From Planctomycetota bacterium (lineage in GTDB: Bacteria > Planctomycetota > UBA8742 > UBA2392): 64,000 bases of DNA. The notes beneath the pieces are model-generated. The model was not told the DNA's origin. It saw nothing but the letters and a program-made list of their open reading frames with translations, and made no database searches. This document shows, piece after piece, positions 16,968 through 17,777 of this stretch; the first letter of the stretch is position 1; each line of letters opens with the position of its first letter. The DNA is taken from the NCBI GenBank assembly GCA_019186845.1, contig JABARW010000016.1:1-64000 (forward strand), read 5' to 3'. The position numbers were made by a program, and so were the translations under genes.

Positions 16968-17564
16968 TCACGCACGAGGTTCGAAAAGCTCCCTCCGCGT
17001 CAGGAGCCTGAACGTCGTGCGGTTGTCAGAGCGGTCCTGCACCGGGCCCTCGATGCAATAGAGGCCGGTGGCATCGCCGATGCCCTTGGGCCCCAGGATG
17101 GCAATGTCGCGCCGGCCGCTCTGCAGCAGATCCGCCGCCTGCAGAGCTCCATCGTCGACGAGTACGGGGGTGTAGCCTCGCCGGCGGATCCACCCCGCGC
17201 ATTGGGCCGCGACCTGGGGATGGGCCAGCACCTGAACGATGGAGTGTCGCCCTGCATCGCGGTTGCCCAGCAGGTAATGCTCAATGGCCAGCGTCAGGGT
17301 ATCGAGCACGACAAAGTCGTGGGGGCTGATGGCTGCGATGGCCTCATGGATGGGACCCGTGGTCGAATTGAAAACGGGAATGAGCACGCCGTCCGCCTGG
17401 CCGCTCGCGAGCGTTGCCGTGGCCTCGGCAAAGCTCGCGAATGGCCAGCCGACGAAACGCTCGGCTAACAGCGTCAATCCCGCGCGCTCAGAGTTGCTGC
17501 CGGGGCCGCCCTGGTAGGCGACTCTCCAGCGTGTCGTGTCCTGTATCGGTGTGGTGGTTTCCAC
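16968..17564 (-). CDS. pheA: prephenate dehydratase, catalytic domain only
   Basis: A 198-residue protein matching the PDT fold of bacterial P-proteins: VAYQGGPGSNSERAG at the N-terminus, FASFAEATATLASGQADGVLIPVFNSTTGPI (the periplasmic-binding-like two-lobe core) and a C-terminal DNRTTFRLL that aligns with the family TRF motif. It dehydrates and decarboxylates prephenate to phenylpyruvate, the step to phenylalanine. The usual regulatory ACT domain (about 80 residues) is absent, and the motif reads T-T-F instead of T-R-F, keeping the catalytic Thr position. A leader peptide and attenuator lie directly upstream, so control at transcription may replace ACT feedback. Confidence 0.85.
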   Translation of the reverse strand: METTTPIQDTTRWRVAYQGGPGSNSERAGLTLLAERFVGWPFASFAEATATLASGQADGVLIPVFNSTTGPIHEAIAAISPHDFVVLDTLTLAIEHYLLGNRDAGRHSIVQVLAHPQVAAQCAGWIRRRGYTPVLVDDGALQAADLLQSGRRDIAILGPKGIGDATGLYCIEGPVQDRSDNRTTFRLLTRRELFEPRA

Positions 17565-17590
17565 GGTTTGGCTCCGGGTTGCAGCGTCAG

Positions 17591-17631
17591 AAAATGCGCA
17601 AGGCCCGCCGGTTCAGGGCGGGCCTCGCGCA
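17591..17631 (-). terminator. attenuator terminator of the pheA operon
   Basis: Minus-strand hairpin of TGCGC plus AGGCCCGCC paired with GGCGGGCCT plus GCGCA, interrupted by one mismatch, with a 7-base loop, then ATTTTC. It lies between the leader peptide (21 bases after its stop) and the prephenate dehydratase start, where termination would block the operon. Confidence 0.85.
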
Positions 17632-17678
17632 GAAGTGGGTCTTGATCGACCGCTAACTCAGCACGAAACGCCGCCCTG
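17614..17678 (-). promoter_or_regulatory. antiterminator pairing (segments 2 and 3 of the attenuator)
   Basis: The octamer CAGGGCGG inside leader codons 18-20 (17671-17678) is perfectly complementary to CCGCCCTG in the 5' arm and loop of the terminator (17614-17621). Pairing of these two would prevent the terminator stem. A ribosome waiting at the aromatic codons 6-15 leaves the octamer free, while one finishing the leader would cover it. Confidence 0.75.
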
Positions 17679-17730
17679 CCCCGATAAAGAGGTAGGTGAA
17701 CGTAACGTACTTGAAGTTGCGGATTCTCAT
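17653..17730 (-). CDS. Phe/Tyr-rich leader peptide of the pheA operon
   Basis: A 25-codon open frame too short for usual gene finders. Residues 6-15 read FKYVTFTYLF: three Phe and two Tyr in ten codons, with another Phe at 22. GGAG stands 7 bases before the ATG. A consensus-like promoter lies just upstream and a terminator with a competing antiterminator lies just downstream, ahead of prephenate dehydratase. This is the arrangement of ribosome-mediated attenuation as in enteric pheL, but the sequence is unrelated to pheL. Scarcity of charged Phe-tRNA (or Tyr-tRNA) would stall the ribosome and let the operon be transcribed. Confidence 0.85.
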   Translation of the reverse strand: MRIRNFKYVTFTYLFIGAGRRFVLS

Positions 17731-17749
17731 CTTTTCGCTCCGGCGCGGA

Positions 17750-17777
17750 AGTGTAGAGATGATGGCGCGCCTGTCAA
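17750..17777 (-). promoter_or_regulatory. sigma-70-type promoter of the pheA leader
   Basis: Minus-strand TTGACA (17772-17777, perfect -35) and TACACT (17750-17755, 4 of 6 to TATAAT) with a 16-base spacer. Transcription would begin near 17743, just ahead of the leader ribosome binding site GGAG at 17738-17741. Confidence 0.75.

Follow-up and report, generated by a model that had tools for sequence, protein, structure and literature searches.

A probable leader-peptide attenuator with Phe and Tyr sensor codons ahead of prephenate dehydratase and DAHP synthase genes in a Planctomycetota family

The window, by which we mean the whole stretch of 64,000 nt analysed here, corresponds to contig C13 of a planctomycete genome of 3.7 Mb in 89 contigs. 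On its minus strand a short leader unit is found between lolA and two genes for the entry into aromatic biosynthesis and for its Phe branch (Table 1). The first encodes a prephenate dehydratase, whose start codon is a GTG at 17564 with GGAG at 17575, and the second encodes a chorismate mutase–DAHP synthase fusion. The leader peptide carries F and Y and no W. A first-pass annotation of this DNA had proposed, in order, a TTGACA/TACACT promoter, a GGAG, a 25-codon leader with five aromatic residues in codons 6–15, a strong terminator with T-tract and the two biosynthetic genes. Each of these elements was located, both genes are matched by Pfam, and a further aromatic codon is present at position 22 of the leader. 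The dehydratase consists of the catalytic domain alone, and the Pfam search gave no match to an ACT domain. Control of its synthesis may therefore stand in for feedback inhibition, which we offer as a suggestion.

Table 1. Positions of the features at the locus, in window coordinates.
Feature	Position	Strand	Details and basis
lolA	18465-17809	-	Pfam/ORF reading
Sigma-70-type promoter, TTGACA-16-TACACT	17777-17750	-	-35 TTGACA 17777-17772; -10 TACACT 17755-17750; 16-nt spacer; consensus scan, 10/12
Leader Shine-Dalgarno, GGAG	17741-17738	-	7 nt ahead of ATG; read directly
Leader ORF, 25 codons, MRIRNFKYVTFTYLFIGAGRRFVLS	17730-17653	-	F/Y codons 6, 8, 11, 13, 15, 22
Region 1, sensor-codon segment pairing with region 2 (1:2)	17722-17689	-	MFE folds
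Region 2, antiterminator 5' strand, in leader codons 19-25	17676-17657	-	Duplex prediction
Region 3, antiterminator 3' strand: spacer and terminator 5' arm	17636-17616	-	Duplex prediction
Intrinsic terminator hairpin (3:4)	17631-17595	-	15 pairs (12 G-C), -33 kcal/mol
U-tract TTTTC, 3' of terminator	17594-17590	-	Read directly
Prephenate dehydratase, 198 aa	17564-16968	-	PF00800, E 1.2e-31, residues 15-191
Chorismate mutase–DAHP synthase fusion, 379 aa	16849-15710	-	PF01817 and PF00793

Comparison with chance expectation shows which of these parts carry weight. Only one of the 121 ATG ORFs of 22–28 codons on both strands of the window has at least six F/Y codons (mean 0.92), and this is the leader. 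Compared with shuffles, the folding energy of the 181-nt leader RNA has z = -5.4, and two promoter-like sites are found in 3 kb with 0.2 expected. Terminator-like sites are unremarkable alone (two found in 3 kb, 2.4 expected by chance), and the motifs of an octamer pairing between leader and terminator, described below, each occur 9–10 times on the window's minus strand and are likewise weak evidence when taken alone. Since a lone terminator and a lone octamer are common by chance, conservation and the full antiterminator have to decide. The hairpin could also be a mere terminator of lolA and the ORF a product of chance, as lolA lies on the same strand and ends about 180 nt upstream. We consider this extremely improbable: a promoter lies between lolA and the leader, the leader is kept where the upstream sequence is not lolA-like (e.g. 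in G008, G007 and G010), and its F/Y content is unique among the ORFs counted above.

The family set comprises 16 genomes, and a close ortholog of the dehydratase is present in 15 of them, from five genera. A second dehydratase match, in a longer open frame, is seen in most genomes of the family. In all 15 ortholog genomes a leader of 22–26 codons lies about 154–190 nt ahead of where the dehydratase match starts, together with a terminator of the form GGCCCGC...GCGGGCC and its U-tract. The leaders contain 3–6 F/Y codons each and the remainder of the peptide diverges; MTRRNFKYVTFAYLFIGAGRRFVLS, MNKHVAIFAFAFAYFYPGGRGPTCE, MNRTPNIFALYAYYFGGRGRAYG, MNRNAVIFALAYAFYFEGAGRRSD and MTTARNSFAFAYAFYFAGRRGRACG are among the diverged peptides that keep F/Y in the same stretch. 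The leader of G015, with just three F/Y codons, counts against this regularity. The first-pass annotation had named drift of the 25 codons away from aromatic residues as the result that would speak against its reading, and had proposed a comparative search for the leader upstream of related genes with compensatory changes in the stems. F/Y codons and terminator are kept in 15 of 15 genomes, and the comparative search agrees with the proposed attenuator in the same 15.

A TTGAC-type promoter is found at the equivalent place in the other genera. Flanking sequence upstream of the leader unit varies between genera, thus the leader unit travels with the dehydratase operon. A GGAG precedes the leader in the window's genus. 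In most other genera the -10 element is so close to the ATG that little or no Shine-Dalgarno sequence fits. With a transcript start predicted only a few bases before the ATG, the leader there may be read from a leaderless or almost leaderless message. In all genera except that of the window (loci L005–L016) the -35 element sits in a palindrome, TTGACNNGTCAA, which is also common elsewhere in G010; it may be an operator, or merely a promoter habit. When 392 planctomycete genomes were searched with a covariance model, strong matches were confined to this family, in 15 of its 16 genomes. The weaker matches were mostly unrelated terminators, among those inspected. No leader stood out upstream of the other DAHP synthase genes.

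The pairing of leader and terminator had been recognised before as an octamer in leader codons 18–20 complementary to the 5' arm of the terminator (CAGGGCGG with CCGCCCTG). The complementarity is correct, but its extent was underestimated: regions 2 and 3 are predicted to form an antiterminator of about 20 pairs (-30.5 kcal/mol, duplex prediction) whose 5' strand is contained in the leader ORF. The antiterminator helix is found in 15 of 15 genomes at -25 to -35 kcal/mol and involves the last seven or so leader codons. Matched strands pair with a mean of -28.4 kcal/mol, compared with -24.5 kcal/mol when partners are swapped between genera (permutation on ten representatives, p ~8e-5, with the kinship of the genomes ignored). 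The inner helix is near-invariant, with GCGGGC or GGGCGG pairing to GGCCCGCC. In the outer helix both sides change between genera and the pairing is kept: TTTCGTGC with GCGCGA or GCACGA in the genus of the window, TGCGT with ACGCA in G005, G013 and G015, TTTGT with ACAAG in G009 and G014, GTGTG with CACAC in G008, and GCGTT with AACGC in G007 and G010. RNAalifold on a MAFFT alignment reports one covarying pair only, because the alignment loses the register of the variable helix.

Selection on these pairings acts at the RNA level. Synonymous-codon shuffles of the leader match the native antiterminator in 3% of cases in the window and in a fraction of at most 0.11 in 14 of the 15 genomes; the antiterminator of G012 is no better than its synonymous shuffles (fraction 0.47), which counts against. 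For the leader hairpin 1:2, a putative protector or pause hairpin that overlaps the sensor codons, the fraction of synonymous shuffles that are equally stable is 0.016 for the window; it does not exceed 0.056 in 14 of 15 genomes, with G005 as the exception (0.13). Furthermore, genera 2, 4 and 5 read the core GCGGGC in frame 1, whereas genus 6 reads it in frame 0, thus the stretch is kept as RNA pairing and not as a peptide motif. This bears on the idea that the leader is an arrest peptide which senses a small molecule through a conserved C-terminal sequence instead of an aminoacyl-tRNA. The peptide tail is indeed rich in G and R in all relatives (GAGRR, GGRGR), but it tracks an RNA motif whose reading frame differs between genera, and it is the F/Y codons that are the kept peptide feature; an arrest peptide is therefore very unlikely.

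Leaders of the same kind occur before other amino-acid genes of the family. Trp leaders followed by a terminator precede trpE in ten family genomes; they carry WWW, except for WQWW in G014. The window's own genome has one of them, MIIRAGQNRWWWCSLKGWHAA (contig C34, locus L252), and the other trpE leader loci are L250, L253–L258, L263 and L264. Cys-rich leaders with a terminator are found before cysC (APS kinase) at 13 loci, including MSNKTKKMCCMWTPSGGSCGVLV in the window's own genome (contig C83, L098), and in G004 MNFTANKCCCCMSSPGARCS precedes a likely sulfate adenylyltransferase, a gene named by eye; the Cys leader loci, that of G004 included, are L098, L077, L083–L091, L101, L102 and L050. 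In both the Trp and the Cys leaders the ORF again contains the antiterminator strand, located 3' of the sensor codons. The Cys leaders give a positive synonymous-codon test, whereas the result for the Trp leaders is not significant. Tiles covering about 2.4 Mb of G010 were scanned for a leader followed by a terminator, and the sole result, obtained independently, was a further Cys leader, before cysC; the codon test used is low in power with one genome, and the known Phe leader of G010 failed it. No comparable leader was found in this class upstream of hisG (19 loci) or ilvD (4 loci). In a more distant planctomycete a Val/Leu/Ile-rich peptide, MNFAVLLVNVLVLIAWPSCQGSGPLT, lies with a terminator before a likely ilvD (G169:C16:12886-13025; L052 1501-1640). 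One family probably applies attenuation to at least three amino-acid pathways, and independent origins are conceivable.

These parallel leaders also help to judge a third alternative, in which a protein- or metabolite-binding RNA switches between two folds and the leader ORF merely adds translation. Alternative RNA folds do exist by MFE folding. However, conservation falls on coding sequence, region 2 is inside the ORF, the parallel leaders carry W or C to suit their operon, and an Rfam scan of the leader up to E 1 gave no leader family and only a spurious mir-341 match. We regard such a binding RNA as a very improbable explanation.

We thus favour a classical ribosome-mediated transcription attenuator of the dehydratase and DAHP synthase genes, with a probability of roughly 0.9. 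The attenuator reading of the first-pass annotation is upheld in that sensor codons and the 1:2, 2:3 and 3:4 pairings are all present and conserved. From this geometry and the known mechanism we infer the following course. RNA polymerase would start shortly before the leader ATG, with a ribosome following. When Phe- and Tyr-tRNA are ample, the ribosome would reach the stop codon and its usual footprint would cover region 2, so that the 3:4 hairpin forms and transcription ends at the U-tract. When Phe/Tyr-tRNA is short, which would be the signal, the ribosome would stall at the Phe/Tyr codons 6–13 (less cleanly at codon 15), opening 1:2 and leaving region 2 free. Region 2 would then pair with region 3, the terminator would be blocked, and transcription would continue into the dehydratase and DAHP synthase genes. 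With no translation at all, 1:2 would hold region 2 and the terminator would win. Shortage of Phe or Tyr in the cell therefore probably switches the genes on.

Eight genomes from three sister genera (G003, G011, G008, G010, G007, G009, G013 and G014; loci L093 at ~1530-1671 on the minus strand, L094 and L127–L132) have a leader and terminator of similar layout before tRNA-Leu; none was found in the window's genus. In several of these genomes genes for tRNA-Tyr, -Leu, -Cys and -Ser come next, tRNA-Tyr being identified by eye from the anticodon loop. The promoter is conserved as TTGACrcGTCAACTCTTGACGTGTAAAGT. Codons for Leu, Ser, Tyr and Cys make up 7–10 of leader codons 2–18 against a background of 24%, with single-genome tail fractions of 0.003–0.11 for a codon set that was picked after the tRNAs had been seen. 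Of the nine such codons in the G003 leader, seven are readable by the operon's own tRNAs. The synonymous-codon test was negative for these tRNA-operon leaders. At L093 and L127, partial tRNA 3' ends (T-arm to CCA) follow the intact tRNA genes, as left by mobile-element integration. It is conceivable, at somewhat less than even odds, that in the sister genera the tRNA supply answers its own shortage through ribosome-mediated attenuation. We found nothing relevant on leader peptides of tRNA operons in the open-access literature, and the tRNA operon, if this is true, would be a new target for ribosome-mediated attenuation.

The trp, pheA and his operons of E. coli represent the classical leader-peptide attenuation scheme. 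The organisation of the planctomycete cell is debated, and an attenuator of this type would imply that transcription and translation are closely coupled in Planctomycetota. In the open-access literature we found no report of leader-peptide attenuation in this phylum. The system proposed here would thus be a known mechanism in a phylum with no report found, with the antiterminator strand inside the leader ORF.

Compared with pheL-pheA of E. coli, the locus shares a Phe-rich leader, alternative antiterminator and terminator structures, and a prephenate dehydratase gene downstream. It differs in that Tyr codons are also present, that the leader ORF itself contains the 5' antiterminator strand, that a chorismate mutase–DAHP synthase fusion is the second gene, and that it belongs to another phylum. 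The peptide is visibly different from enterobacterial pheL, from which it is set apart by sight and by the absent Rfam match, in line with the first-pass annotation, which called the two unrelated in sequence. Attenuators of trp and other operons have been described in Actinobacteria (PMC1262725); operon-specific leader codons and a GC-rich terminator are shared with these, while the phylum differs and pheA is unmentioned there. Naville and Gautheret (PMC2965389) stated that, to their knowledge, none had been shown before outside Proteobacteria and Actinobacteria, and added His leaders before hisS/hisZ in bacilli. The bacilli His leader is likewise a case of attenuation beyond Proteobacteria and Actinobacteria, and differs from the present one in its amino acid, in its targets, which are tRNA synthetase genes, and in belonging to Firmicutes.
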